Below, piece by piece: positions 1,135 to 16,465 of a DNA stretch of 64,000 nucleotides. Each line of letters begins with the position of its first letter. The first letter of the stretch is position 1. The stretch comes from a virus. The translations under genes were made by a program, and so were the position numbers. The notes below the pieces were generated by a model, which made no database searches, was not told where the DNA came from, and saw nothing but the letters and a program-made list of their open reading frames with translations. The stretch is from the IMG/VR virus record IMGVR_UViG_3300032782_000007, positions 1 to 64,000 of that record, one strand, 5' to 3'.

Positions 1135-4100
1135 TGGCGATCTCGATTATCAACGGAAGAGCCGTCACGCAGCGTCTACCTGAGGAGACAGAGATGCTCC
1201 TCAAGCAGGATCTCGCGCGTCTGAGCCCGGCCGAGCGCGAAGTCGTCGATCTGATTTTGAAGGAACTCGAAGAGCGCAATGATCCTTCCGCAGTCCCCTC
1301 TGAAGAGCCTTCTTTGATCGAATTGCTCGGTCAGGCCGAGTACAAGACACCACCGGTAGACATGGAGACCTTCGTGAAGGACCCATACTACCTCGGCGAG
1401 ACCTGTTCGAATATCTACCCAAAGCTGCTCGCAGACCTCAAGGAGATGTTCGAAGGTGGCTACTCTGAGGCCATACTTTGCTTGCACCCTGATACACCGA
1501 TCCCCCTGCTGGATGGAACAACTGCGACGATAGCGAAACTGGCGGAACGGTGGCAGTCCGACCCCGAACCGTTCTGGGTATACAGCTGTCGTCCTGACGG
1601 CAGTGTGCTGCCCGCACTCGCCGAACAGCCGCGCTGTACCGGCGAGGACGACTATTATCGCGTCAGGCTCGAGGATGGGTCCCATTTTGTCGGAAATGCG
1701 CGGCATCGCATGGTTCTGAGAGACGGAACCAAACGAACAATTGAAGAGCTAAAAGCGGGCGACAGCCTGATGCCGTTTCAAACAAGGCTCTCCAAACGAA
1801 GCCAGGGGCGGCGTATCGAGGGCTACGAACTGGTCCTCGACAACAAGATCGAGCGAGAGGTCTACACACATGTATGCGTGGAGTCATTAAATGGGCCTAT
1901 CGACTCCAAGATCGAGACGATCCACCACGTCAACTTCAGAAAAACGGACAATCGCCCTTCAAACCTAACGCGAATGCCGTGGAAAGATCACAGGTTGCTA
2001 CACGCTCGGGCTAAGCGCGCCTATTTCGCAGAAAATCCCGAAGTGCGGGCCAATCTGGTGTCGCGGCAACGCCAAGCCGCATCGGATCCGTCATCGCCGC
2101 TCCGTAAGGGACATCTGGAGTATATGCGATCTGAGAAGGGTCGGCGTCATGCGCGCGCCAGTCTTGAGAAGTGGAATATCACGCCCGAGGAGAAACGCGC
2201 GGTTCTTGCAGAACGCGCCAAAACGGGTAGGGAGAGGCGTTGGCAAGGAGAAGGAGCCGACGAGCAAAAAGCAGCGGCTGCGGAGCGCATGCGAGCGCGC
2301 AATCTCGCCGGCAACGCAAAGTTTGCCGGGCGTCGAACTTGGATCGCTCGCTCAGAGGAAGCCAAAAAGGCTCACACAGCTAGACTCGTGGCTAGAAACA
2401 AGGAAGGTCGAGTAAGACGACCTGACGTAACGCTGGAGAGTATTCTGAGCGCAAGAGCTGGCGGTGCGACGACAATCAAGGCGGTTTCAGTTGCGCTGGG
2501 GTGCTCGACAACTCGCGTTAGGAGCGTGCTGCGCGAGGCCGGTATTGAGAGGGGTACCCTGTTCAGAGCGAGGAATCACTGCGTGGTGTCCGTCGAACAT
2601 ATCGGGCGGGGCCCCGTGTACTGCATGACGGTTCCGCAGACCGAGAACTTCGCGATTTGCACCCTCAACGACGAGGGTGCCTATACACGCAACGGCGTGT
2701 ACTCCTCCAATACTGGTGGGATCGGTTCGGGGAAAACCTTTACAGCATCTATCGGAATTTGTAGGGTTTTGTACGAAATATCCTGCATGCGCGATCCGCA
2801 TGCCGGCTTCGGATTGGCTAAGGATACGAACATTTCGTTCCTCGCTCTATCGGTCAATGAGAGTCTCGCGCAAAAGGTCGTGTTTGAAAATCTAGTAGTC
2901 AAGCTAAAGGCCAGCGCTTATTTCAACGAACAGTTTCCGTTTGCCACATCGAAGACGGAGCTGAGATTTCCGCACAACGTATGGGTCGCTCCGAGAGCGA
3001 CAACGGCAACTTCCGCGTTGGGGCTGAACGTGATCGGAGCGCTGATCGACGAGGCGGCCTTCCTCGGCACGTCCAAGACCGCGGCAGGCGAGATAGACAA
3101 GGCGGACACGATCTACCACGCGATCCTCCGCCGTATGAAGTCGCGTTTCGAGCGTCAAGGGAAGCTACCGGGGATGCTGTTCCTGGTGTCCTCGAAGACC
3201 TCTGACGACGACTTTACGGCACGACGCATTCAACAGTCTCTAAATGACCCATCGGTGTACGTGACCGATTACACCGTCTGGCAAACAAAGCCCGACGCCT
3301 ACTACAACCAGAAACGATTCTGGGTCCTCTGTGGCAACAGCGAGCTAGGCTCGCGGATTCTCGAGGACAACGAAGACCCCGAGAAGCTTCGACCGACACT
3401 CCCAGAGGGAGTGGTTCTTTTGGACGTACCGATCGACTTTCGAAAAGACTTCGAACGGGACCTGGAAAGCGCGATTCGAGACATTGGCGGGATCAGCTCT
3501 TCCAGTCTTCGTCCGTACATTCAAAGGCGCGAGAAGATCAAAGAAGCTATCGACCCGGGATTGTCTCACCCGTTCTCCACTGCGGTTTACGACATGTCGA
3601 AGGGCGGCACCTTCATGTGGAGCCGCATGGTTGGCGAGCGCCGCGAGCGAATCATGGGCTACGGGGACCGACCGATTCTGCGCCCGCTCCTAAACCCTGC
3701 CGCTAACCGCCATATTCACGTCGACCTCGGCCTTAAGCATGACGCGGCCGCACTGTGTATGGCGCACGTGAGCGGCCATAAAGACGTCATTCGTCGAAGC
3801 GAGGATGGTCGCGAGTACGTTGAAAAAGCCCCTGTGTACACCGTCGACTGCATGTTGCGAATCGTACCGCCCACGGGGGGCGAGATCGTTTTCGGGGACA
3901 TTCGACACCTCATCTACGATCTCATCGCGCACGGCTACACTGTTACGTGCGTCTCCTATGACTCGTGGCAATCGACGGACGGTCTGCAAATTCTCGGACA
4001 ACGAGGGATCAACGCGGAGATGATCTCCGTCGACACGAGCCCCGAGCCGTATGACACGCTGAAGACCGCGCTCTACGAGAATCGTGTCAGGCTCTACCAC

Positions 4101-4421
4101 GACGAACACCTGTTCAAGGAGCTGGTAGCACTCGAGGAACACACAAAAGGTGTAAATCGCAAGATCGATCACCCGAAAAAAGGCTCGAAAGATCAATCAG
4201 ATAGCTTGGCTGGTGTTGTTTTCACCCTATCGCAGCAGCGGTTGGTGGCTCCGCTGCCGATCATGAAAGGGCTCATGCAGGACAACGACCCGTGGATGCA
4301 CGAACAGCAGCAGTCGTATTTGGCGGGAAATCGGGGGGCCAACGAGAATACGGGGCTGCTTCCGGCGTTTCTTACAGGCGATGGCGGGGATCCTGATTGG
4401 GGAGACGGCTGGAATTTCTGA
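1134..4421 (+). CDS. terL: Terminase large subunit, interrupted by an intein
   Basis: This is the packaging motor ATPase and headful nuclease. The precursor has 1095 residues. Removing intein residues 116-526 leaves about 684, a typical TerL length. The ATPase domain shows the P-loop GGIGSGKT (528-535), Walker B LIDEA (637-641) and a coupling motif, SSKTS (about 686-690). The RNase H-like nuclease shows HVDLG (Asp864), SYDSWQS (Asp943) and KDQSDSLAG (Asp1020/1023). The GTG start at 1134 overlaps the preceding stop. The intein sits immediately before the P-loop, so no ATPase can form until splicing. The gene is followed by an intergenic copy of the GTCCGTACGGAC palindrome. Confidence 0.95.
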   Translation: MAISIINGRAVTQRLPEETEMLLKQDLARLSPAEREVVDLILKELEERNDPSAVPSEEPSLIELLGQAEYKTPPVDMETFVKDPYYLGETCSNIYPKLLADLKEMFEGGYSEAILCLHPDTPIPLLDGTTATIAKLAERWQSDPEPFWVYSCRPDGSVLPALAEQPRCTGEDDYYRVRLEDGSHFVGNARHRMVLRDGTKRTIEELKAGDSLMPFQTRLSKRSQGRRIEGYELVLDNKIEREVYTHVCVESLNGPIDSKIETIHHVNFRKTDNRPSNLTRMPWKDHRLLHARAKRAYFAENPEVRANLVSRQRQAASDPSSPLRKGHLEYMRSEKGRRHARASLEKWNITPEEKRAVLAERAKTGRERRWQGEGADEQKAAAAERMRARNLAGNAKFAGRRTWIARSEEAKKAHTARLVARNKEGRVRRPDVTLESILSARAGGATTIKAVSVALGCSTTRVRSVLREAGIERGTLFRARNHCVVSVEHIGRGPVYCMTVPQTENFAICTLNDEGAYTRNGVYSSNTGGIGSGKTFTASIGICRVLYEISCMRDPHAGFGLAKDTNISFLALSVNESLAQKVVFENLVVKLKASAYFNEQFPFATSKTELRFPHNVWVAPRATTATSALGLNVIGALIDEAAFLGTSKTAAGEIDKADTIYHAILRRMKSRFERQGKLPGMLFLVSSKTSDDDFTARRIQQSLNDPSVYVTDYTVWQTKPDAYYNQKRFWVLCGNSELGSRILEDNEDPEKLRPTLPEGVVLLDVPIDFRKDFERDLESAIRDIGGISSSSLRPYIQRREKIKEAIDPGLSHPFSTAVYDMSKGGTFMWSRMVGERRERIMGYGDRPILRPLLNPAANRHIHVDLGLKHDAAALCMAHVSGHKDVIRRSEDGREYVEKAPVYTVDCMLRIVPPTGGEIVFGDIRHLIYDLIAHGYTVTCVSYDSWQSTDGLQILGQRGINAEMISVDTSPEPYDTLKTALYENRVRLYHDEHLFKELVALEEHTKGVNRKIDHPKKGSKDQSDSLAGVVFTLSQQRLVAPLPIMKGLMQDNDPWMHEQQQSYLAGNRGANENTGLLPAFLTGDGGDPDWGDGWNF
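1479..2711 (+). mobile_element. TerL intein with HNH homing endonuclease
   Basis: The intein has 411 residues (116-526 of the precursor). It starts at Cys116 (CLHPDTPIPLLDG, Hint block A). A block B-like NARH follows, with His192. It ends with a block F-like VYCMTVPQTENFAI and the terminal NGVYSSN, with Thr527 as the first extein residue. The penultimate residue is Ser instead of the usual His. The HNH core is IHHVNFRKTDNRPSNL (about 263-278). A helix-turn-helix-like segment lies near 441-481 (ALGCSTTRVRSVLREAGI) and probably helps bind target DNA. Known Hint chemistry predicts self-splicing. Activity is inferred. Confidence 0.9.
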
Positions 4422-4427
4422 CGAAAA

Positions 4428-4439
4428 GTCCGTACGGAC
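4428..4439. repeat. GTCCGTACGGAC palindrome, copy 2
   Basis: Exact copy in the 33-bp gap between terL and the next gene, six bases after the terL stop codon. The flank is GAAAA on the left. Confidence 0.85.
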
Positions 4440-4454
4440 CGATAGGATAGGCTG

Positions 4455-4799
4455 ATGGCCAATCCGCTCGTAGAAGACCTCCAGGGCCTGCTTCGCTCGC
4501 AAGACGCCCCGGCAATGCCCGTCGTGACGATCGCGACCGATCCCAACTACGTTCATCTTCGCGCACTACTTGACGCGATCATGCACAGTCCGGCAATGGG
4601 GACGCTTACCGCCGATGAGCTACGCGCGCTGAATACGTTCATCATCACGGTCACGAGATGCGCGACGCAATCCCCACCGACGGCCCGAGGCGAGATCGGC
4701 GCGGTCTGGCGGTCCGCGGAGAGTGGAATCATCAAACTGCCGATCGGTTTGGACGTGCGAAGGACGATTCACTCGTTGATGCTTGGCTCGAACGCGTAG
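4455..4799 (+). CDS. Hypothetical protein
   Basis: This 114-residue protein of unknown function lies between terminase and portal. The ATG follows a purine-rich AGGATAGG site. The N terminus (MANPLVEDLQGLL) resembles that of the 61550 gene (DPKSLLEDLQGLL), which suggests a short shared helical motif. The rest looks helical and soluble, with no signal peptide or membrane segment. The next gene begins seven bases after its stop, so the two are probably cotranslated. Confidence 0.7.
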   Translation: MANPLVEDLQGLLRSQDAPAMPVVTIATDPNYVHLRALLDAIMHSPAMGTLTADELRALNTFIITVTRCATQSPPTARGEIGAVWRSAESGIIKLPIGLDVRRTIHSLMLGSNA

Positions 4800-4806
4800 G
4801 GGCACC

Positions 4807-5172
4807 GTGAGCGTTCTCGACGAAATTCGCGCGCTAATGGGGGAAACGCCTCTTCCGGCGACGGCCCCGGCTACTGTAGAGGCTTTCGGGGTCGATACGG
4901 GAAAGGTGCTCGTCATGCCTTCCGGGGTGACGCGCGATCTTGCCGCTCAAGCGATCGCCGACATAGACACTTCCCCGATTATGCGGGATATTGGCGTAAT
5001 CGTGGCGCGTCAGATTGCAACCGAGCTTCAGCAAATGGCACTTCGTCCCGCGGACTACGCGAGTCTGCCGGACCTGCCTCAAATGGTCGCAGCGCGACTC
5101 GGGGCCGAGCTTGCGACGGCGCCAGATGTGTTCGTAGCTTCACTGCTCGAACAGCTCCGGTTGAAAGGCTAA
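4807..5172 (+). CDS. Hypothetical protein
   Basis: This 121-residue protein has no recognised family. I chose the GTG at 4807 because a TAGGGG site lies four bases upstream; an in-frame TTG at 4783 overlaps the previous gene and has no such site. The sequence begins MSVLDEIRALMGE and is largely helical. It is placed between terminase and portal with a 6-bp gap to the portal gene, so it is probably a minor head or packaging component. That role rests on context only. Confidence 0.65.
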   Translation: MSVLDEIRALMGETPLPATAPATVEAFGVDTGKVLVMPSGVTRDLAAQAIADIDTSPIMRDIGVIVARQIATELQQMALRPADYASLPDLPQMVAARLGAELATAPDVFVASLLEQLRLKG

Positions 5173-5178
5173 GACGGC

Positions 5179-8100
5179 GTGGGATTCATCGGCGACGCGG
5201 TAAATAGGGTCCGAGGCTGGATCCGCCAAGACAAAGAGCACACGGCGTTCCAGTTCGCCAAAGGCACGACCGCATCCGGCTACCCCAGCAGCGGAAGCGA
5301 CCTACTTCAAGCGTATGGGTATGACGTTCTCAGCGACTACCTCAAGCTTGAACAGGACCTTCTCTCCAGGTTCGTCGACTACGAGGAGATGGCCGATCAC
5401 CCTTTGATTGCCACCGCCCTGGAAATCTACGCGGACGATGCGACCCAGCACGACTACCACGTAGGTCGCCCCCTGTGGCTGAGTAGCCCCGACAAGACCA
5501 TCGAGGAGATCGGCGAAGACCTCTTCCATCGAACCCTCCGAATCGAAGAAGAGATCTGGAGTATCGCGCGGACGCTAGCCCTATACGGGCAAAATTACGA
5601 AGAGCTGCTTGTTACCGATCAAGGAGTGCGTGGACTCAACTACCTCGCGCCGCCGACGGTTCGCCGAATCGAGGGTACTCGCGGCGAACTATATGGATTT
5701 GTTCAAGATTTCAAAGGTCGGTTTGGGCACTGTTTGGCCTCCGGCTCCCGTGTTTGGGGCGTAAGCGGTCTAACGGAAATTCAGCAGTTCGACGAAGGCA
5801 AAGTCCTCGGGTACAAACCGGTAAAGGGGGTGCGTCCTGCCCTCGAATCGCCAGTCCGATCTCCGACCGCGGTTCTAGGAGGGGCGATCAAGACGCTGCC
5901 AGTGGTACGAAGGCACAGTAACGGTACACAACGCGTACTTCGAATTCGGACTCGTCACCGGGAAATCGTGGTAACAGCCGATCACCCCTTATTGGCCGTG
6001 CAGCCTTCCGAGGCCGGTCGTACGGGTGAGCCTACCTGGGTAAAAGCAAAAGACCTGCGACTAGTAAGACAGTCTGGTGGTAAGAAGAACATCGACTACG
6101 CGAAGTCGGCGAAACTTGTCATCTGCACACGAATGCCGGCGGGCCGTGTGCCGGAATGGTCAGAGATTTGGTCTGAGGACCCTGACGACTACACGACCTC
6201 TTGGGGTAGCCAACCCAAGAAGCTCACACTACCGGATCGTCCTACCCCTGAATTCTGCCGGCTTTTCGGATTTCTCCTGGGAGACGGTTGGCTCGACGAA
6301 GGTAACGTTTGCTACGCCCGCGGCGAGTATCCGGAGCTGAATGACTACTATGACGGACTGTTGAACTCGTATGGGCTTACACCTAGAATCAAAAACGACG
6401 GCGAACAGACCTGCGCGGGCGGTGTCTACCTGGCAAGACTGTTGGTCTCGCTCGGTTGGATCCAGGGTTCCCACAATAAACGGGTTCCGAGGTGGGTCTA
6501 CGGCCTCCCCGAGGAACACCGAGAGGCCTTTCTCAGGGGGTTCATCGATGCCGACGGGTGGGATCTACGGAGCAAAGCCGGACTGGTCATGCATCAGTTT
6601 GAGCTGGCAAATTACGATCTTGTCCGAGATCTGAAAAATCTTATTGACGGACTCGGCTACCACTGCGGGAATATCGGAAAACAGGTCAATAAGGTAGGCG
6701 ACACAATTCACAACCGTCGAACAGGCAAAGACGTTGTGGTCCAGACACGCGCCGACTCTTTTACGTGCTGCTATAGTGAGCTAAAGTTCGAAGCGCCGCT
6801 TGTAGCGGAGAACGTGATAAGCATCGTCGATCACGGCGAAGCAGAGGTTTTCGATCTCGAGGTCGACGATGAGGCCCATAACTTCATCGCAGACGGCGTT
6901 GTTGTTCACAATTCTCCGGCGGAATTCCAGCAGATTCTGGCTATGCGATCGGCGATGCTCCAGGGGCGATCTAACGGTCAAGGGACGATCGCCGGCATGG
7001 AACGTCTATCTGCGTTCGAGGATTGGGAGGTCGTTCACTTCCGAATCCACACCAAACAACGACGTGCCATATACGGGAGTTGCCTTGTCGGCTCAAGCCG
7101 CGTTTGGACGCCGGACGGAGTTAAAGCGATCGCGGACATCCGATCTGGAGATCGTGTGTTTACGCGCAAAGCGGGTCGTCTGCAGACTACGAAAGTTCTG
7201 GATCAGGTCTGCAACGGAGTGAAGCCTGTTTTCCGGGTGAGGACCACGCACAGAGAGATCACGCTAACAGCGAATCACCCGCTTCTGGTCGATCTCGGCG
7301 GTCACGGAAAGAACCGCTGGCGCCCAGTCGAAGAACTTAGAATCGGCGACAAGCTTGTGTTTGCGGCACGAATGCCGGAGACTCGGCCGCCGCCTCCTCT
7401 CGGGCTCAGATTACTGCGCGTCGACGACGACACGGAAGTGCGTCTTACCGCGCGCGGGGCCGCAGCTCTTCGCCAACAAACGCGAGAGAGCCACTACTCG
7501 CCGAGAGATAGCGGACTGCGACCGTTAGCCGCAAAACTGGGAATCACGCGAGCAGTTTTGGAACTTCTCTTGGAAGGGGGGTCAGCTGTTCCGCTGAAGA
7601 CGCTTAGAGCCCTGTTCGACGAAGCGGGTCTGCCGCTATTTGAGGGGAGTTGGACAAAAAAGCTTCAGGACGAGCGACTCCGGCTACCAGATTTCGTAGA
7701 ACCTTGGTTTGCGCGCCTGTACGGATTTCTTCTCGGCGACGGCTGGCTGACGGACGGCCAGGTATTGTTCGCGCTCGGCGTGGACGAAGAACGCAACAAG
7801 TTCTATGAAGGTTTGCTGGAAAAGTGTGGACTGCCGACAGCCCGTAGCGGTCGATATGACGAGCCGGGCGTAGAAACGCAATCGTACGTTAGCAGTCAAG
7901 CACTAGTCGGCGTCCTTAGGGAACTTGGGTGGATCGATGGTGCGCACTTCAAGCGTGTTCCGGCATGGGTTTACACGCTTCCGTTTGAGCACCGCAAGGA
8001 ATTCCTAGAGGGATTCATTGACGCCGATGGTTGGGAAACATACGAAGGGAAGTACCTGCACACCGAACTCTGCAACGATCCCCTCGTGCGAGACATCAAA

Positions 8101-9609
8101 GCTCTGATCGACGGCCTAGGGTGGACGAGCGGTAATGTGCGGACTCGCGGCCCTCGTACAGGCGTGATAAAGCGTTCTAACGGCAAAGAAAAACTGATTG
8201 TAGGTACCGGCGGCGCCTTGGTGACCTACCACGAGACAGTCCTCGAATCGCAGGAGTTCGGCAGCGAGGAGATCATCTCGATCGACCCGGCGGGCGAAGA
8301 GGCGGTCTACGATATTGAGGTCGCAAACAACGAGCACAACTTCATTGCCGACGGGCTTGTAGTCCACAATTCGATCCTAGACAGCGCCCGCTGGATCTTC
8401 AAACGGCTTGTGTTGCTTGAAGACACGGCGATGATTTACCGCCTTACCAGGGGCGCAGAGAGGTTCGCCTATTACGTAGACACAGGCAACCTTCCTCCGG
8501 CGGAAGCGCTCGCCTACTTGAATCGCGTACGACAGCAGAACAAGAAGAAGAAGTACGTCAACAACCTCACGGGAAAGATGGATCTCAAGCACTCCATCTT
8601 GAACCAACAGGACGATGTTTTCGTGCCGACCCGGCAAGGAGTAGATGGGACTCGAATTGAAGTCCTAGGTGCGCCTAGCTGGCAAAGCATGGAAGATATT
8701 CAGTATTTTTTGGATCAGCTGTTTGCAGCAATCAAGGTTCCGAAGAGTTACTTGGCACAGGATCAGTCGGACACTCACAGCTCGCTCAGCTCGCGTGACG
8801 TACGGTTCGCGCGGACGATTCTCAGGGTGCAGCGTGAGCTTCGAAATGGGTTTGCCAAGATCATGCGGGTCCATTTGGCGGCGCTTGGGATCGATCCAAA
8901 CCGCGTCGACTACTCGATGCACATGACGGTTCCAAGTGCGATCTTCGAGTTGGCGCAGATGGAAGTCTTGAATGCGCGCGCGGACCTTTGCGGGCGTCTC
9001 CGTGAGATGGTTTCCCTGCACTACCTGCTCTCGACGGTCCTCAAACTGAGTGACGAGGAGATCGCGCTCGTGATGCGTCAGCGCGAGGAAGAAGCCGACG
9101 AAGAGGCGACGATTCAGGCGCGCACGCAGAGCATGATCCAGAAAGCGGTGGCTGCGGCGGGAATGGAAGGCCAAGCGCAGGGTCAGATCGACACGACGCA
9201 GGCGATGAACGCGGCTGGAATGCAGACCCCGCAGCAGCAACAGCAGCAGGCGCAGGCTGCCCAGATGGCGCAACAGCAACAGGCTCAGGCGCAGCAAGCT
9301 CAGGCGGCGCAACAGGCCGCGCGAAAAGAGAGTCGAATTGGGGGCCCGCTGATCCGGATCCGGGACGGCGTTCGACCGGTGGAGTATTACGGGCTCGAGC
9401 GGAGACTGTTTGAGGGGGAAGCAAAGTCTCGTGCGGACCGATCGCGGCTCGAGTCGAAGCTGGATAGGCTTGGATTTACGAGTCAGCAGATGCAGGAGAA
9501 ACTACGCGCGCGGTCCCATGAGGATCGAATGATCCACTCGCGGCTGCGGGAGCTGGGGGGACTGGTGCGGGATCTCAACATCGAGGTTCGAGGTCTCCGC
9601 CGCTACTAA
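5179..9609 (+). CDS. Portal protein (T4 gp20-like), interrupted by two inteins
   Basis: The portal ring forms the DNA entry vertex and nucleates prohead assembly. The 1476-residue precursor contains inteins at residues 185-578 and 635-1064, leaving about 652 residues, close to gp20-type portals. Family features include the HPLIATALEIYADDAT segment near 74-89, the conserved YGS-SILDSARWIF region rejoined by splicing, and NQQDDVFVPTRQGVDGT with PKSYLAQDQ in the C-terminal extein. A Gln-rich stretch (about 1350-1382) precedes a coiled-coil-like C terminus. The start is GTG at 5179. The two inteins are only 56 codons apart, so both must splice to give a working portal. Confidence 0.92.
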   Translation: MGFIGDAVNRVRGWIRQDKEHTAFQFAKGTTASGYPSSGSDLLQAYGYDVLSDYLKLEQDLLSRFVDYEEMADHPLIATALEIYADDATQHDYHVGRPLWLSSPDKTIEEIGEDLFHRTLRIEEEIWSIARTLALYGQNYEELLVTDQGVRGLNYLAPPTVRRIEGTRGELYGFVQDFKGRFGHCLASGSRVWGVSGLTEIQQFDEGKVLGYKPVKGVRPALESPVRSPTAVLGGAIKTLPVVRRHSNGTQRVLRIRTRHREIVVTADHPLLAVQPSEAGRTGEPTWVKAKDLRLVRQSGGKKNIDYAKSAKLVICTRMPAGRVPEWSEIWSEDPDDYTTSWGSQPKKLTLPDRPTPEFCRLFGFLLGDGWLDEGNVCYARGEYPELNDYYDGLLNSYGLTPRIKNDGEQTCAGGVYLARLLVSLGWIQGSHNKRVPRWVYGLPEEHREAFLRGFIDADGWDLRSKAGLVMHQFELANYDLVRDLKNLIDGLGYHCGNIGKQVNKVGDTIHNRRTGKDVVVQTRADSFTCCYSELKFEAPLVAENVISIVDHGEAEVFDLEVDDEAHNFIADGVVVHNSPAEFQQILAMRSAMLQGRSNGQGTIAGMERLSAFEDWEVVHFRIHTKQRRAIYGSCLVGSSRVWTPDGVKAIADIRSGDRVFTRKAGRLQTTKVLDQVCNGVKPVFRVRTTHREITLTANHPLLVDLGGHGKNRWRPVEELRIGDKLVFAARMPETRPPPPLGLRLLRVDDDTEVRLTARGAAALRQQTRESHYSPRDSGLRPLAAKLGITRAVLELLLEGGSAVPLKTLRALFDEAGLPLFEGSWTKKLQDERLRLPDFVEPWFARLYGFLLGDGWLTDGQVLFALGVDEERNKFYEGLLEKCGLPTARSGRYDEPGVETQSYVSSQALVGVLRELGWIDGAHFKRVPAWVYTLPFEHRKEFLEGFIDADGWETYEGKYLHTELCNDPLVRDIKALIDGLGWTSGNVRTRGPRTGVIKRSNGKEKLIVGTGGALVTYHETVLESQEFGSEEIISIDPAGEEAVYDIEVANNEHNFIADGLVVHNSILDSARWIFKRLVLLEDTAMIYRLTRGAERFAYYVDTGNLPPAEALAYLNRVRQQNKKKKYVNNLTGKMDLKHSILNQQDDVFVPTRQGVDGTRIEVLGAPSWQSMEDIQYFLDQLFAAIKVPKSYLAQDQSDTHSSLSSRDVRFARTILRVQRELRNGFAKIMRVHLAALGIDPNRVDYSMHMTVPSAIFELAQMEVLNARADLCGRLREMVSLHYLLSTVLKLSDEEIALVMRQREEEADEEATIQARTQSMIQKAVAAAGMEGQAQGQIDTTQAMNAAGMQTPQQQQQQAQAAQMAQQQQAQAQQAQAAQQAARKESRIGGPLIRIRDGVRPVEYYGLERRLFEGEAKSRADRSRLESKLDRLGFTSQQMQEKLRARSHEDRMIHSRLRELGGLVRDLNIEVRGLRRY
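5731..6912 (+). mobile_element. Portal intein 1 (LAGLIDADG)
   Basis: The intein has 394 residues. It starts with Cys185 (CLASGSRVWG). Block B is TADHPLLA and the end is HNFIADGVVVHN, followed by Ser. The endonuclease has two LAGLIDADG-type helices, LFGFLLGDGW and FLRGFIDADGW. All splicing residues (Cys1, TxxH, terminal His-Asn, Ser+1) are present, so it looks active. It is clearly homologous to intein 2 of the same gene along the endonuclease core and the C-terminal splicing block. Confidence 0.93.
7081..8370 (+). mobile_element. Portal intein 2 (LAGLIDADG)
   Basis: The intein has 430 residues (635-1064). It starts CLVGSSRVWTPDG. Block B is TANHPLLV and the end is HNFIADGLVVHN, followed by Ser. 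The LAGLIDADG helices are LYGFLLGDGW and FLEGFIDADGW. Compared with intein 1 it has an extra segment before the endonuclease (about residues 770-840 of the precursor). It interrupts the conserved portal motif YGS-SILDSAR. It appears able to splice. Confidence 0.93.
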
Positions 9610-9648: not shown

Positions 9649-9680
9649 GTTTCGGGAAACCACCTTTAGCGTCAAATGTG

Positions 9681-10907
9681 ATGACGCGGCCGTTTTTCGG
9701 TGAAGAGATTGAATCGATCCTAGAAGGCTCGTACGAGCGACTTCGCGGTCGGGTCGAGAAGGCAATTTCGGAATCGGCAGCGCGGCTCTTCGGGAAAGAC
9801 GTTTCGGTGACTGTCGAGGGAACGTTTAACGGCTACGCAGTGGTCGTAACGGCGAAGCCGCTCTCTGAGGGGATGTGGCAGAACTTCAAGGACAACGTCT
9901 CCGATACTGTTGACAACGCGAAGAAGCTTGCGACGGGTTTCGCGACGGGCGGCATGGCGGGGGTGGGCAAAGCGGCGTTGGATGCGAAGCCCGTAGGCAG
10001 CAAGATCGGCCCGCTGACGAATCCGTTTGGTCGTTCCGACGGCAAGACGCTTGGGCAGACTTTGGGCGGCGACAAGGAGGGCGACGATTCGGAGCCCCCG
10101 ATGAAGCCGAAAATGCCGAAAGTGCCGGCACTTCCTGCGGAGAGCGTCGAGTACAACGCGTGGCGCGTCAAATACGAGATCGCAGAGAACAAGGAAGTCA
10201 TGATCGTGGGCTGCGAGCCCATCATGGCGGCGGTGTTCAACGAGGCGCAATTCGCGGAGCAGTCGGCGAGAGCGTTCGTAGAGGCGTTCATGCGGGGAAC
10301 GGCGAGCCGCGCCGATCTCCATTTTGGGCACGTGGTCAAACACGCGCTCGAGGCTGCGCCTCCGGTGGAGCCGACGAAGCTCGTCGAGTCGTTTGAAACG
10401 CTCGTGAAGAGCGATCGTCCGTGGAAGAAGGTCTATCAGGAGCAGCGCGCGGCGATCCAGGGGGCGGTCCGTACGGACCTTCCAGCGCTAGAAGCGTCTC
10501 GTCTTCAGCCCAAGTTCCGCAAACTCTACGACGGAACTCTTATCGAGGGAGATCTCTCGGGCTACCAGAGCCTGGTTACGTCAGACCTGACGTATCTCGC
10601 CGAACGTGTTGCCGGCCTCTCGAATCGAGTTGAGGCTGCGCGCGAGAAGCTCAACGGAGTGGTCCCGGCGCTGAAAAAGCCGAGCGATCCGACCCTAAAA
10701 GGGTTTGAAGTGTTCGTCGAAGATCTTGCAGCGGATCTTCGTGGAATCAGAAATGCGCTCACTGAAGGCGCGAAACACACAATTAGTCTTGACGGCCAAG
10801 CCAAGCTCTACGACGCTTTAGTAGTCGAGCTACATCAGTACGATGTTGCTGGTTTGTTCGTGGAAGCAATGACAACTCGCCTTTCTGCAACAGCAGAGGA
10901 GAAGTAG
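9681..10907 (+). CDS. Hypothetical head-region protein
   Basis: The protein has 408 residues from ATG 9681; a GTG at 9678 is an equally possible start. I do not recognise the family. Residues of about 85-165 are rich in Gly, Pro and Lys and probably disordered, while the N- and C-terminal parts are helical. In T4-like gene order, prohead core and accessory head genes lie between portal and protease, so this is probably a head or core protein. An exact copy of the GTCCGTACGGAC palindrome lies inside it (10467-10478, read VRTD). Confidence 0.65.
   Translation: MTRPFFGEEIESILEGSYERLRGRVEKAISESAARLFGKDVSVTVEGTFNGYAVVVTAKPLSEGMWQNFKDNVSDTVDNAKKLATGFATGGMAGVGKAALDAKPVGSKIGPLTNPFGRSDGKTLGQTLGGDKEGDDSEPPMKPKMPKVPALPAESVEYNAWRVKYEIAENKEVMIVGCEPIMAAVFNEAQFAEQSARAFVEAFMRGTASRADLHFGHVVKHALEAAPPVEPTKLVESFETLVKSDRPWKKVYQEQRAAIQGAVRTDLPALEASRLQPKFRKLYDGTLIEGDLSGYQSLVTSDLTYLAERVAGLSNRVEAAREKLNGVVPALKKPSDPTLKGFEVFVEDLAADLRGIRNALTEGAKHTISLDGQAKLYDALVVELHQYDVAGLFVEAMTTRLSATAEEK
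10467..10478. repeat. GTCCGTACGGAC palindrome, copy 3
   Basis: Exact copy within a head-region gene, extended to GGTCCGTACGGACCT and read as VRTDL. The same 15 bases and the same peptide recur in two other unrelated genes. Confidence 0.85.
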
Positions 10908-10912
10908 AAGAC

Positions 10913-11914
10913 ATGTTTGGTCGTCACGCCCCGCTCAGCCCACTCAACGAGGATCTCCGAAAGCTTGGGATCCTTCCCGAGGAGGGACCGGAGACTCCGG
11001 GTCCGTCCGGCGAACCCACCACGAGCGCAGCCGCGCCGGGTCGAAACGTGGGCGCGCTTACCGACAAGCCGAAGGAGAAGGGCGCAGATCCGACGGACGA
11101 AGTTCCGGGTCACGAAGGTGCGAAGCCGCCCGAGGCGAATCTGCCTGTAACGCCTGGCGCGCAGTCAGAGGCGATCAAGGGTGAGCCCGACAAGGTTCGC
11201 GCTGCGCAGCCTCCGGCGAGCGCGGTCGACGGAAAGGTCGCTGCCACCAAGGGTCCGAACGAGTCGCTTCCCGGCCCGCTGTCGGTGCGCGAGGCGGTCC
11301 AGAAGATCCGCACCTCGACGGGTGTTGTCGAGGGCTCGACCCCGCTCGATCGAATCGCGGATGTTCTGACGGACGTCTCGGCGATTATCGAGAACGTCGA
11401 TGCCAAGCATCGCACGGAGACGGTGAAGGCTTTCGCGAACAGCGCGATCATCGCCGAGATGCTCGGTCGCGGTTACGCCGGGTACGCGTACAAGCACCAG
11501 GACGGCGATCTTGCCGAGGCGGCAGAGACGCTTGCGACGATGGCAGGGGAGGCGCGTGACATCGCGCTTGCGCTGGAGTCGGGCGAGGAGCTGGACGCGG
11601 AGGGGGTTGCTGCGGAGTTCCGTCAGCAGATGGACGCTCTCGTCACGGCGATGGATCTCTACGCCGACATCGTCGAGGCAGACGATGATGAAGAGGATGA
11701 TGAGGATCCTGAGGACAAGAAGGGCGACAAGCCGGGCGGCGACAGGGACCCCGCGGAAAAGGACGAAGGGGTCCGTTTCGCGACTCCTCTGATCAAGAAC
11801 AAGGGCCAGGGAGCGACGCCGCGTCCGACTACGGGTGCGGGGGCCGCGCTGAGCCGCCTCAACATGAGTCGAACCGAGGGTACGGGTTTTTTTCCGAAGA
11901 GGGTGACGCGCTAG
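10913..11914 (+). CDS. Hypothetical acidic head-region protein (zero-frame product)
   Basis: The zero-frame product has 333 residues. The N-terminal 130 are Pro/Gly/Glu-rich and probably disordered, 130-250 are helical, and a very acidic Asp/Glu run lies near 256-268. An AGGAG-AGAAG site precedes ATG 10913. Location suggests a prohead core or other head component. Near the 3' end a seven-T run (11887-11893) lies in the canonical phase for a -1 ribosomal frameshift. The alternative frame is then open for 66 more codons, to two bases before the protease ATG. The zero-frame product may therefore be one of two proteins. Confidence 0.7.
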   Translation: MFGRHAPLSPLNEDLRKLGILPEEGPETPGPSGEPTTSAAAPGRNVGALTDKPKEKGADPTDEVPGHEGAKPPEANLPVTPGAQSEAIKGEPDKVRAAQPPASAVDGKVAATKGPNESLPGPLSVREAVQKIRTSTGVVEGSTPLDRIADVLTDVSAIIENVDAKHRTETVKAFANSAIIAEMLGRGYAGYAYKHQDGDLAEAAETLATMAGEARDIALALESGEELDAEGVAAEFRQQMDALVTAMDLYADIVEADDDEEDDEDPEDKKGDKPGGDRDPAEKDEGVRFATPLIKNKGQGATPRPTTGAGAALSRLNMSRTEGTGFFPKRVTR

Positions 11915-12093
11915 GTTGGGAAGATCTCGACGAGTGGCAGCGAAAGAGGCGAACAGCCTACTCGAGCGGTCGACGCGAGATCATCGGGGCCCCTAAAAGC
12001 CCCTTTCGACTGAAACGACGCACTACCAATCCAGGCAACTCACAGATACAGCGAACGAAATTCCGAAGCAACTTCCGTTGGCGCATTCACTGA
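11887..12093 (+). other. Candidate programmed -1 frameshift and basic C-terminal extension
   Basis: The slippery heptamer T TTT TTT (11887-11893) is read GGT TTT TTT in frame zero. After a -1 slip, translation resumes at 11893 (TCC GAA GAG) and continues to TGA at 12091-12093. That gives a fusion of about 393 residues whose 66-residue tail is rich in Arg and Lys. The extension fills a gap that otherwise lacks any gene and ends one base before the protease ATG (TGACATG). The protease start has no Shine-Dalgarno site, which would fit coupling to this frame. A one-base homopolymer error in the assembly would look the same. Confidence 0.6.
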
Positions 12094-12094
12094 C

Positions 12095-13696
12095 ATGACC
12101 ACCACTGAAACGACCGTAAAGACCGCGAAAGCCCCGAAGCAGCCCAAACAGCTGCTGGTGGACTCATGCTGGGTCCAGCTCCAGTTGGTGGAGGGGCAGC
12201 ACGAGGGGAAGACCATCGTGCGCGGCGAGTTCGCCAAGTGCGGGATTGCAACGGAGAACAAGCGCGTTTATCCGGGGAAGCTCTGGGAGCGGGAGTTCAA
12301 TCGTCTGCGAAAGACGATGAGCGCGGGCTCCTTGTTTGGAGAGAGCGATCACCCGAGCGATGGTCGGACGCAGCTTTCGCGTGTCTCGCACAAGATCACC
12401 AATCTTGAAATCAAAGATGGCGTGGTTGTCGGCGAGGCCGAGATCATGGATACCGCACGCGGTCGAGATCTCAAAGCGATTTTGGCGAGTGGGGGGAAAA
12501 TCGGAATCAGCTCTCGCGGTCTTGGTTCGGTTCGTACGAACGAGCGCGGCGAGGACATCGTTCAGGACGACTACCGGCTTGTGACGTTCGACTTCGTTGC
12601 AGATCCGGCCGACCAGGACGCGTTTCCGGGAGTTTTCTACGAGCATCGAGAGGAACGGATGGAGCAGGACCAAGAGGCGAAGCAGGCGCAGGAATTCGCG
12701 GCGGCCGTTGAGCAGGCCAGGAAAGAGAGCCGCGAGGGAGCCGAGGCGGCGCTTCGTGAGGAGTTCGCCAAAGAGATGGTCACGCGCCTCTCGGCGTTTC
12801 GAGCGGAGATCGCGGAACAGATCCGGGGCGAGCTGCTTTCGGATCCCTCGGTAGCGGGGGCGAAGGTCGCCCTCGAGCGAGTCAAGGACGCTCTTCGACC
12901 GTTCGTGCTTCCTGAGGACGCGAAAATCGTTGGCGAGCAGAAGGACAGCGAGATCGGTCAGCTGAAGAAGATGCTCGCGGAGCAGTCGCTGAGGCTGAAG
13001 ACACTCGAGGAGGAGAAGTCCAACCTCGAGAAGGTGGCCAAAGAGGCCGGCTACAAGTTCTACCTCGAGCGCCAAATCGGTTCGGATCCGGATGCGGAGC
13101 TTATCCGCAAGCTCCTCGGTGACGTAACGGTTTTCAAGACTGGCGCGGAGCTGCAGGAGAAGATCGAAGCGGTCCGTACGGACCTGCAAACCAAGCGGGC
13201 AGAGGCGGCGAAGCTGACCGAGGAGATCGAGGCGGAGAAGCGTGCCGAGCGGGATCGCAAGGAGAAGGAGCGTGTCCGCGCGCTCAAGCACGAGGAGTCA
13301 CTCCGCGAGGAAGTGGCCCAGCTCCGCGAGGCTCTTGCGAAGTCGTACCGCGTGAACCAGGAGTTCGAAGTTCTCTACTACGCGGAAGAGCGTCTTCGCA
13401 ATCATCCGCGTGCCGCCGAGATCCGGCCGCTCGTGGAGAACTCGACTCTCGAGTCGAAAGAGCAGATCGACAAGATTCTGGACGGATTCCGTGCAGCACC
13501 GCTGCAGTCGGAGGAAGTCGCGAATGTCAGGGCGCGCGTGCGCCAGCTTACCCAGGGGGGTCATGGACCGGACGCAATCGAGGAGGCAAAGCCTGCTCGG
13601 CCGCGGTCGGAAAATGGAGGATTTTTCGAGCGTTTGGGAACAACCAGGGAAGAGCAGCGCGGCCTGATGGGCTTCGCTCCCACCCGAACGAAGTGA
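12095..13696 (+). CDS. Prohead protease (T4 gp21-like) fused to a coiled-coil scaffold domain
   Basis: Residues 1-185 are a gp21-type serine protease that matures the prohead, with the catalytic His in GESDHP (His86) and Ser in GKIGISSRGLG (Ser139/140). The region from about 190 to 450 is a long Glu/Lys/Ala-rich coiled coil of the sort found in separate scaffold or core proteins (T4 gp22 role), and the end is Gly/Pro/Arg-containing. At 533 residues it is far longer than gp21 alone (about 210), so it probably combines protease and internal scaffold. It lies directly before the capsid gene, as in other T4-like phages. A palindrome copy lies at 13172-13183. Confidence 0.85.
   Translation: MTTTETTVKTAKAPKQPKQLLVDSCWVQLQLVEGQHEGKTIVRGEFAKCGIATENKRVYPGKLWEREFNRLRKTMSAGSLFGESDHPSDGRTQLSRVSHKITNLEIKDGVVVGEAEIMDTARGRDLKAILASGGKIGISSRGLGSVRTNERGEDIVQDDYRLVTFDFVADPADQDAFPGVFYEHREERMEQDQEAKQAQEFAAAVEQARKESREGAEAALREEFAKEMVTRLSAFRAEIAEQIRGELLSDPSVAGAKVALERVKDALRPFVLPEDAKIVGEQKDSEIGQLKKMLAEQSLRLKTLEEEKSNLEKVAKEAGYKFYLERQIGSDPDAELIRKLLGDVTVFKTGAELQEKIEAVRTDLQTKRAEAAKLTEEIEAEKRAERDRKEKERVRALKHEESLREEVAQLREALAKSYRVNQEFEVLYYAEERLRNHPRAAEIRPLVENSTLESKEQIDKILDGFRAAPLQSEEVANVRARVRQLTQGGHGPDAIEEAKPARPRSENGGFFERLGTTREEQRGLMGFAPTRTK
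13172..13183. repeat. GTCCGTACGGAC palindrome, copy 4
   Basis: Exact copy inside the scaffold part of the protease gene, extended to GGTCCGTACGGACCT and read VRTDL. Confidence 0.85.
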
Positions 13697-13738: not shown

Positions 13739-15247
13739 ATGTCTACAGAAGCACGTGAAATATTGGCAGAGCAGCAGGCGCGGACGATCGCCGACAAGAG
13801 CTACGTCCGAAGCCTTGTTCAGAAGTGGGGCGAGTTTCTCGAGGGGATTCCGGACAAGACGGAACAGCAGCGCTACACGCTCGGCGTGGCGGCGATCCTC
13901 ATGGAGAACCAGTGCCAGCACCTCTTGACGATGAACGAGGACACGCGAACGGCCAACGTTGGTTCGTTCACGAAGTTCATCTTCCCGATCCTGCGCCGGG
14001 TCTTCCCGAACCTGATCGCGAACGAGATCGTCTCGGTACAGCCGATGACGGCTCCGACGGCGGCGGTCTTCTACCTCGACTACGTCTACGGCACGACCAA
14101 GGGCCAGACGCAGGCGGGAAACGTCTTCCCGCGTGACTTCGACCGCAACTACTCCTCGGAGTACGTGCAGGGCGAAATCCTTTGGACGGGTGACGGTACC
14201 CACGGTGGTGGTGCGGGCACGGCGATCTCGCTGAGCCTCGCGTTCAACCCAGTTCGTCCGCTCAACACGACGCTCGGCTTCTCCTGCGTGGTTCAGGAAG
14301 AGGACTCGACGGGCACGGCGGTCCAGGTGGCGACCGACAACGGAACGGGTGGATTCACCTTCGTTCCGGCTGGCGGATCCACCGCGGGCACGATCAACTA
14401 CTCGAACGGCGCGATCTCTGGATTCAAGTTCCAGAACGCTCCGGCGAGCGGAAACAAGGTCCGAGCCTACTACTACTACGACGGGGAGCTGAACCAGAAG
14501 GTTCCGCAGATCAACCTCGACGTCAAGCAGGCGCCGGTTCAGGCCCAGCCGCGTCGACTGAAGGCGCTCTGGTCGGCAGAGGCCGCTGAGGACCTCCGCG
14601 CGTTCCACGGGATCGACGCTGAGACCGAAATGGTTTCGGCTGTCGCCCAGGACATCGCGCTCGAGATCGACCGTGAGATCGTCAACGATCTCTTCGCGGC
14701 CTCGACGGGAACGACCGCGTCGTTCGACCGTGTACCCCCGGCGGGTATCGCGGAGATCGACCACCTCCGCGCGATGATCACGCAGATCTCGACGGTGTCG
14801 AACCTCATCCACAAGAAAACGCTGCGTGCGCCCGCGAACTTCATCGTCACGTCCCCGGACGTGTCGGCGCTGATCGCGCAGCTCACCACGCACGGTGACT
14901 ACCGTCCGCTCTGGGTCAGCGGCGGCGAATCCCCGTACGGCCCGGCAGACATGCCGCGTCCGCTCACCCAGCACGGGCAGTTCGGTATCTACAAGACCGG
15001 AACGCTCATGAACAAGTGGATGGTCTACGAAGACCCGTTCTTCACGCGCGATCAGATGCTGATCGGGCTCAAGGGCGGAAGCTTCCTCGACGCCGGATAC
15101 GTCTGGGCGCCGTACATCCCGCTTCAGGTGACTCCGACCTTCCTCGATCCGGCAGACTTTTCCTTCAGGAAGGGCCTCCGCACGCGTTACGCTAAGAAGT
15201 TGCTTCGAAGCGAATTCTACGGCCAAATGCGAATTCTTAATCTTTGA
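13739..15247 (+). CDS. Major capsid protein (T4 gp23-like)
   Basis: This 502-residue shell protein forms the head lattice. It follows the protease, which probably removes its N-terminal segment during maturation. gp23-type features include VSVQPMTAPTAAVFYLDY (about 99-114), the segment RRLKALWSAEAAEDLRAFHGIDAE from residue 272, split by the line EIDREIVNDLF (about 309-319), and the hydrophobic C-terminal half ending RILNL. TTGAGG precedes the ATG at a good distance. A strong hairpin terminator follows. Part of the same core motif is repeated in the gene at 18176. Confidence 0.93.
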   Translation: MSTEAREILAEQQARTIADKSYVRSLVQKWGEFLEGIPDKTEQQRYTLGVAAILMENQCQHLLTMNEDTRTANVGSFTKFIFPILRRVFPNLIANEIVSVQPMTAPTAAVFYLDYVYGTTKGQTQAGNVFPRDFDRNYSSEYVQGEILWTGDGTHGGGAGTAISLSLAFNPVRPLNTTLGFSCVVQEEDSTGTAVQVATDNGTGGFTFVPAGGSTAGTINYSNGAISGFKFQNAPASGNKVRAYYYYDGELNQKVPQINLDVKQAPVQAQPRRLKALWSAEAAEDLRAFHGIDAETEMVSAVAQDIALEIDREIVNDLFAASTGTTASFDRVPPAGIAEIDHLRAMITQISTVSNLIHKKTLRAPANFIVTSPDVSALIAQLTTHGDYRPLWVSGGESPYGPADMPRPLTQHGQFGIYKTGTLMNKWMVYEDPFFTRDQMLIGLKGGSFLDAGYVWAPYIPLQVTPTFLDPADFSFRKGLRTRYAKKLLRSEFYGQMRILNL

Positions 15248-15314: not shown

Positions 15315-15357
15315 ACACAAAATTTGTGTTGAACGTGCACGCCTCGGAGCGTATAAC
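15315..15357 (+). promoter_or_regulatory. Promoter with operator-like palindrome for the homing endonuclease
   Basis: TTGAAC (15329-15334), a 17-bp spacer and TATAAC (15352-15357) match sigma70-type boxes. The -10 box ends seven bases before ATG 15365, so the transcript would be leaderless. ACACAAA-A-TTTGTGT (15315-15329) is an inverted repeat touching the -35 box and could be an operator. Confidence 0.65.
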
Positions 15358-15364
15358 TCTCGGC

Positions 15365-16465
15365 ATGGGTCGAGTCGCAGGGAAGAAGCACGAGAAGCCG
15401 CGGGTATACTTGGCGCCCGAGCAGAAAACAGCATTGGTCCGTCGATACAACGAGGCGTTAGCCTCGAACGAGTTCCTCACGCAGGCCCAGCTGGGGGCGG
15501 AGTTCGGAATCACGCAGGTAGCGGCAAGCAAGATTCTCCGTGCGGCGGGGGTGAGGACGCGTTCCCGTGAGGAGGCGTGCCCGACGCGGATAGATCCTCA
15601 GGAGGCAGCTAGGATCTACCTGGAGAACCCTCGAATGACGATCGAAGAGGTCGGCGAGCTGTACGACGTCGGTTACACGGCGACTCGAGACCAGCTGCTC
15701 AAAGCGGGAGTACCGTTGAGGACGTCAACGGACTACGCGCGATACGCGTGCAACAGGAATTTCTTTGCTGAGGTGAACCCTACGACCGCGTACTTTGCGG
15801 GGTTCATCGCCGCTGACGGATACATCACCAAATCGGGTTTGTCCGTGAATTTCGGGCTCCATCCGAAAGACGCGGTGATTCTGACGAATCTCAAGGCAGC
15901 CTGTGGATCGGAGCATCCAATAGTGGTCAGGCCTAACAACACAGGGAGGTTATACAGCTGGCTCTCGGTGTGCAGCATCGACTGGGTGCGGGACCTCGAG
16001 CGTCACTACAATATCGTCAACGCGAAGTCGTTGATCCTTAGGCCTCCGAATCTGACCGATGAGGGCCTGATCTGGCACTTCATCCGCGGCTACTTCGACG
16101 GCGATGGACATGCAAGTCTTGCCGGTCTGGTACATATCATCACAGGTTCCCAGGCGTTTATGGGCTGGCTGAAAGAGATTCTAGGAGAGCCCGGGCACAT
16201 CCAGGAACACGAGTGGCTCAACGAGGACAAGGAGACCTACATTTGCGGCTACGGCGCCTGGTGGTCTAAACTTGCGGACGCTAAACGGATTGCGCTGAAA
16301 ATGTACGCCGACTCCACGCCCGCCATCCGGCTGGAGCGTAAATTTCTGCGTTTGCAACGGCATTTCGGGCCTGGGCCTCAGACGGCGCCCGAAGAGTTCG
16401 AGGACGTTCTCGAGCTAGACGACGCGGACGACGCCCCCGAGTTGGAACGGATTAAAGGCGCTTGA
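15365..16465 (+). CDS. Free-standing LAGLIDADG homing endonuclease
   Basis: The protein has 366 residues. Two LAGLIDADG helices are visible, AYFAGFIAADGY (about 142-153) and HFIRGYFDGDGH (about 238-249). The N terminus carries two helix-turn-helix-like segments (about 40-62 and 93-116) that probably bind DNA. The C-terminal tail is acidic. I prefer ATG 15365 to upstream in-frame starts because a promoter -10 box ends seven bases before it. It is inserted just after the capsid terminator and has its own promoter, typical of a mobile gene independent of the late operon. Confidence 0.9.
   Translation: MGRVAGKKHEKPRVYLAPEQKTALVRRYNEALASNEFLTQAQLGAEFGITQVAASKILRAAGVRTRSREEACPTRIDPQEAARIYLENPRMTIEEVGELYDVGYTATRDQLLKAGVPLRTSTDYARYACNRNFFAEVNPTTAYFAGFIAADGYITKSGLSVNFGLHPKDAVILTNLKAACGSEHPIVVRPNNTGRLYSWLSVCSIDWVRDLERHYNIVNAKSLILRPPNLTDEGLIWHFIRGYFDGDGHASLAGLVHIITGSQAFMGWLKEILGEPGHIQEHEWLNEDKETYICGYGAWWSKLADAKRIALKMYADSTPAIRLERKFLRLQRHFGPGPQTAPEEFEDVLELDDADDAPELERIKGA

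Follow-up and report, generated by a model that had tools for sequence, protein, structure and literature searches.

Is the gene between the portal and the prohead protease of a T4-like virus decoded in two reading frames? The question is raised by a window of 64,000 nucleotides (positions 1 to 64,000 of IMG/VR virus record IMGVR_UViG_3300032782_000007), in which the end of an acidic open reading frame (ORF) is overlapped by an open -1 frame that runs up to the start codon of the protease. With a probability of about 0.88, the acidic ORF forms one recoded gene of the head module together with the basic tail encoded in the -1 frame, expressed by programmed -1 ribosomal frameshifting. The module comprises the following features:

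5179..9609, + strand: gp20-like portal with two inteins (Pfam Portal_T4, E 4.8e-59; Intein_splicing)
9678-10907: unassigned 409-aa ORF between the portal and the acidic ORF
10913..11914, + strand: zero-frame acidic ORF, 333 aa (ORF list, family alignment, AlphaFold model, strong Shine-Dalgarno sequence upstream)
11887..11893, + strand: slippery heptamer T TTT TTT in phase with the zero frame, whose stop ends 21 nt further on
11890..12093, + strand: basic tail in the -1 frame, with 66 codons following the slip and then TGA (WQRKRRTAYSSGRREIIG...SNFRWRIH)
11905..11964, + strand: stretch past the slip site with modest RNA structure, candidate stimulator (60-nt z -2.0; 92-nt fold z -0.45)
11912..11914, + strand: zero-frame stop TAG
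12095..13696, + strand: gp21-like prohead protease (Peptidase_S77), 533 aa (Pfam E 8.6e-14; phrog_207 E 2.7e-46)
13739..15247, + strand: gp23-like major capsid protein (Pfam Gp23, E 1.7e-70)

The putative recoded gene is positioned between a gp20-type portal and a gp21-type protease, in a T4-like head module. At least one of the two portal inteins carries a LAGLIDADG domain. The C-terminus of the protease is a long coiled coil, and the capsid gene is not preceded by a gp22 gene of its own; the protease gene is an apparent protease-scaffold fusion. Directly 3' of the major capsid gene, an ORF (15326-16465) combines a LAGLIDADG homing-endonuclease-like region with a sigma-70 region 4-like HTH.

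The zero-frame protein has a net charge of -23, and the Shine-Dalgarno pairing at its start is strong (-9.1 kcal/mol). In the family alignment, it displays the N-terminal motif SLxEDLrklGI and a short zero-frame C-terminus beyond the slip site; across the family, the motif SLEEDFxxIGL is conserved and an acidic tract is also present. A three-helix domain is predicted at approximately residues 164-261, the AlphaFold pLDDT exceeding 90 for residues 164-250. The protein matches nothing in the phages collection and no PHROG or Pfam family, and a Foldseek search with the model returned nothing at E <0.001; the PDB profile matches were designed coiled coils only and were rejected. In one relative (L003), the acidic gene is duplicated in tandem (3544-4002 and 3824-4801), each copy encoding MRKPVVITSLEEDLQxIGL.

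Near the end of the window's acidic ORF, the codons read GGT TTT TTT CCG, which places T TTT TTT in the X XXY YYZ phase, exactly as the earlier note had claimed. A second in-phase heptamer, G GGT TTT (11884-11890), overlaps it one codon earlier. The run of seven T is the only one on the + strand of the window; when the codons of the ORF were shuffled, 0.07% of the versions had an in-phase run of seven T within the last 202 nt, and 5.3% had any strict slippery heptamer there. After the slip, the -1 frame reads TCC GAA GAG ... CAC TGA, its stop occupying 12091-12093. It is indeed open for 66 codons, with a single base between its end and the protease ATG (12095), and the proposed charge contrast also held, the tail carrying +8 over 67 residues as opposed to the acidic zero-frame protein. 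The tail is predicted to be mostly unstructured. Its family is defined by the core [EW]xWRxRRTAYSSGRxELIG and the C-terminus TPFRSNFRWRRY; R6, S12 and R14 are invariant in an alignment of 50 sequences. Two consensus queries of the tail against the phages collection gave no match, searches of PHROGs, Pfam and PDB profiles gave nothing, and neither did Rfam over 11500-12500.

Whether this arrangement is more than a peculiarity of one contig can be judged from the relatives. The window protease matched five, and then 80 further, IMG/VR contigs, and the tail query gave a set of its own; clustering of the tails at 90% identity resulted in 75 non-redundant tails, for each of which the upstream ORF was picked by homology to the acidic family. 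Both frames are conserved, the check that the earlier note had proposed: relative to the upstream ORF, the tail is in the -1 frame in 68 of the 75 loci, and in 66 of these 68 clusters that ORF is recognised by homology as the acidic one. In four of the 75 the tail follows a stop in the same frame and has its own start codon, and three are +1 or undecided. The tail appears to be in the +1 frame in L038 (~4777-4995) and L146 (~4018-4251), possibly due to an indel or another mode of expression. The only cellular record found is a 4-kb contig binned in a Bacteroidales MAG (L164, 1639-1974), which has GGGAAAA and a tail in the -1 frame; it is a weak host hint, too little to name a host.

The best surviving alternative, which is nevertheless improbable, is that no frameshift is involved and that the tail has a small gene to itself, expressed by termination-reinitiation or from a start codon other than AUG. 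In a minority of the relatives, the tail does have a coupled gene of its own, with an ATG or GTG after or overlapping the stop (eight loci: L010, L012, L133, L147, L068, L156, L076 and L081), and the T4 gene order 20-67-68-21, with its one-base overlaps, is in line with such an arrangement. In the window, however, the tail frame contains no ATG, GTG, TTG, CTG, ATT, ATC or ATA from 11713 to the conserved motif (11947), and ATG, GTG and TTG are likewise absent from the reachable stretch in 50 of the 68 loci with a -1-frame tail; in 31 of these 50, a heptamer stands in phase at the expected place.

Slip sites were scored as XXXAAAN or XXXTTTN in the final 33 nt of the zero frame. Under this criterion, a heptamer in the slipping phase is present in 37 of the 68 loci, as opposed to four and two in the other phases, and control upstream windows contain one in 20 of 680 cases (binomial p about 2e-38 for 37/68). 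The signal is also focused in position: 31 heptamers in the slipping phase fall into the last 0-14 nt, compared with two and none in the other phases. The commonest slip site is G GGA AAC, typically GGGAAACGACTGA; GGGAAAA, AAAAAAC, AAAAAAA and CCCTTTC occur as well, in addition to the TTTTTTT of the window. On the protease tree, the identity of the slip site varies between subclades, and its position, its phase and the arrangement are kept; at least 11 changes are needed among the slip, start and CCCT[AC] states.

This diversity of slip sites also bears on a second alternative, according to which the RNA polymerase, and not the ribosome, slips: a T added to some of the mRNA would yield the long product by ordinary translation. 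The window run is a homopolymer and the product would be almost identical. A run of seven T is short for transcriptional slippage, and relatives have G GGA AAC or C CCT TTC, on which polymerase slippage is unexpected, at the same place and in the same phase, which makes this explanation very unlikely. That eight T are really present, the site being an assembly or sequencing error in one long gene, is scarcely plausible: the window is a single metagenomic contig, for whose T-run site no second copy was found in a search, but 68 clusters have the -1 arrangement, most of them with no homopolymer, which excludes the artefact at the level of the family, not for this contig by itself. An in-frame fusion of the acidic ORF and the tail occurs in none of the relatives, which likewise speaks against such an error and suggests that the unshifted product is probably also needed.

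The closest relative of the window (L007, 58% protease identity) has its tail in the -1 frame, no canonical heptamer near the zero-frame stop and a TTG at +15; therefore, slippage in the window branch rests on the T run and the absent starts of the window. Among the 68 clusters with a -1-frame tail, approximately 13 lack both a canonical heptamer nearby and a start, and seven of these have CCCT[AC] (mostly CCCTACC) immediately ahead of the zero-frame stop, followed directly by a stem (L001, L019, L020, L040, L042, L125 and L157). This motif may be an unusual slip site, involving slippage of the Pro-CCU alone, or it may reflect something else.

Purifying selection acts on the tail frame: for tail pairs that are 70-98% identical, the median dN/dS is 0.11, and the differences at codon positions 1, 2 and 3 number 847, 500 and 2114. 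Across 45 loci, the folding z of 60-nt windows is lowest for those that begin 5 nt past the heptamer, with a mean of -1.78 and 42% of the values below -2, and is near 0 elsewhere. In the L085 subfamily, the stem behind GGGAAAC keeps its pairing by compensatory changes, with a covariation score of 0.225; slid versions of the stem reach at most 0.079, and three of 500 shuffles score as high. Where the tail has a gene of its own, the corresponding coding stretch folds somewhat as well (mean z -1.21 +/- 0.71), so that part of the structure signal may stem from the coding sequence. The structure downstream of the window's own slip site is modest to weak, a stimulator role being possible. The inverted repeat that had been put forward as a stimulator, GATCTCG (11923-11929) and CGAGATC (11976-11982), exists, and was rejected in this role: its first arm begins 29 nt past the heptamer, the wrong spacing, and the repeat is absent from the predicted 92-nt fold.

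The prevalence of -1 tails among the relatives, the in-phase heptamers before the stop, the purifying selection and the RNA structure together support the frameshift that the earlier note had suspected. The heptamer and its phase, the conserved and selected -1 frame, the absent starts and the abutting protease start can be read from the DNA directly; the ribosomal nature of the slippage, its efficiency, the role in the core, the coupling to the protease and the task of the tail we infer, in the following manner. Most ribosomes would terminate at the TAG and release the 333-aa acidic, partly helical protein, which is prohead-core-like. Some would slip by -1 on T TTT TTT, the two Phe tRNAs shifting simultaneously, and synthesise a minor, C-terminally extended form with the conserved basic tail RRTAYSSGR...FRWR; the peptide across the shift junction of the window would be GTGFFSEEGDALGWEDLDEWQR. 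The tail would likely act by charge-based contact with acidic core proteins, the capsid interior, the portal or DNA.

The shifted ribosomes may have a second task. The tail stop lies one base before the protease ATG, where Shine-Dalgarno pairing is almost nil (-1.5 kcal/mol, compared with -9.1 for the acidic ORF); the protease thus lacks a ribosome site, as had been stated before. In 53 of 73 loci, the distance between the tail stop and the protease start is 0-3 nt. Since the tail stop is this close and the window start has no Shine-Dalgarno sequence, shifted ribosomes would reach the protease start and could re-initiate there, perhaps setting protease output, and unshifted ribosomes stop ~180 nt short of it. 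The shift may hence set protease dosage, which would be a tailed-phage counterpart of the retroviral gag-pro logic, here achieved by coupling and not by fusion. The joint reading, that the shift sets the ratio of core protein to protease and that a subset of lineages uses an undescribed slip site of the C CCU ACC type, is tentative, and we would give it less than even odds.

Frameshifting in phage morphogenesis is itself well known. The main review of recoding lists lambda G/GT, gene 10 of T3/T7 and the capsid gene of PSA (PMC5009743), and the major head protein of Lactobacillus phage A2 is cited in the PRFect paper (PMC10885494). The expectation that a head position is unusual for a frameshift consequently stood in part: head genes with frameshifts exist (T7/T3 gene 10, A2, PSA), and this particular gene and position appear to be new. 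The review yielded no passage under 'scaffold' or 'phage head', and a literature search, subscription papers and preprints aside, found no earlier report of frameshifting in this head-core gene; as far as found, canonical -1 frameshifting occurs here in a gene family and at a place with no earlier report.

The closest mechanistic likeness is to the lambda G and G-T chaperones, in which, according to the review, a -1 slip late in a short morphogenetic gene, on a heptamer of the G GGA AAR type, adds a C-terminal extension and yields two assembly products from one start (PMC5009743). The lambda gene sits between the major tail protein and the tape measure, whereas the neighbours of the window gene are the portal, the protease and the major capsid protein; neither the tail nor the acidic protein matches tail chaperone families in PHROG or Pfam. 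Gene 10A/10B of T7/T3 and the A2 head protein likewise use a -1 shift in a head gene to make a minor extended protein (PMC5009743, PMC10885494). In those phages, the major capsid protein is extended, in contrast to the window, where the gene is an acidic non-capsid gene and the gp23-like capsid protein is encoded separately.

In position and charge, the likeness is to T4 genes 67 and 68, which also lie between gp20 and gp21, encode an acidic gp67 and, next to it, a gp68 whose C-terminus is basic, and adjoin their neighbours by abutting or by one-base overlaps. In T4, gp67 and gp68 are present in ~340 and 240 copies and are degraded by gp21 (PMC9958956). The T4 genes have separate start codons and no frameshift, unlike the window and most relatives, where the tail has no start. 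No match of the acidic protein or the tail to gp67 or gp68 rose above noise in PHROGs, Pfam, the PDB or BFVD; the agreement is limited to charge pattern and place. By this analogy, the window gene would work like a fused, recoded counterpart of the 67/68 pair.

On the evidence of these genomes, the arrangement appears to extend across a large group of uncultured T4-like phages, and a head-core gene would join the small number of phage gene types in which programmed frameshifting is conserved. The conserved basic tail that comes to light in this way lacks a start codon, for which reason gene callers would be expected to overlook it. With approximately 75 lineages, a comparative set is at hand in which the sequence of the slip site turns over while its place and phase are kept, and in which gain and loss of recoding can be traced, as the tail has its own coupled gene in some lineages. 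If the proposed coupling is true, only shifted ribosomes reach the stop adjoining the protease start, and protease dosage would be set by the efficiency of slippage; the family thereby offers a test of how the ratio of core protein to protease is controlled in the T4-like prohead.
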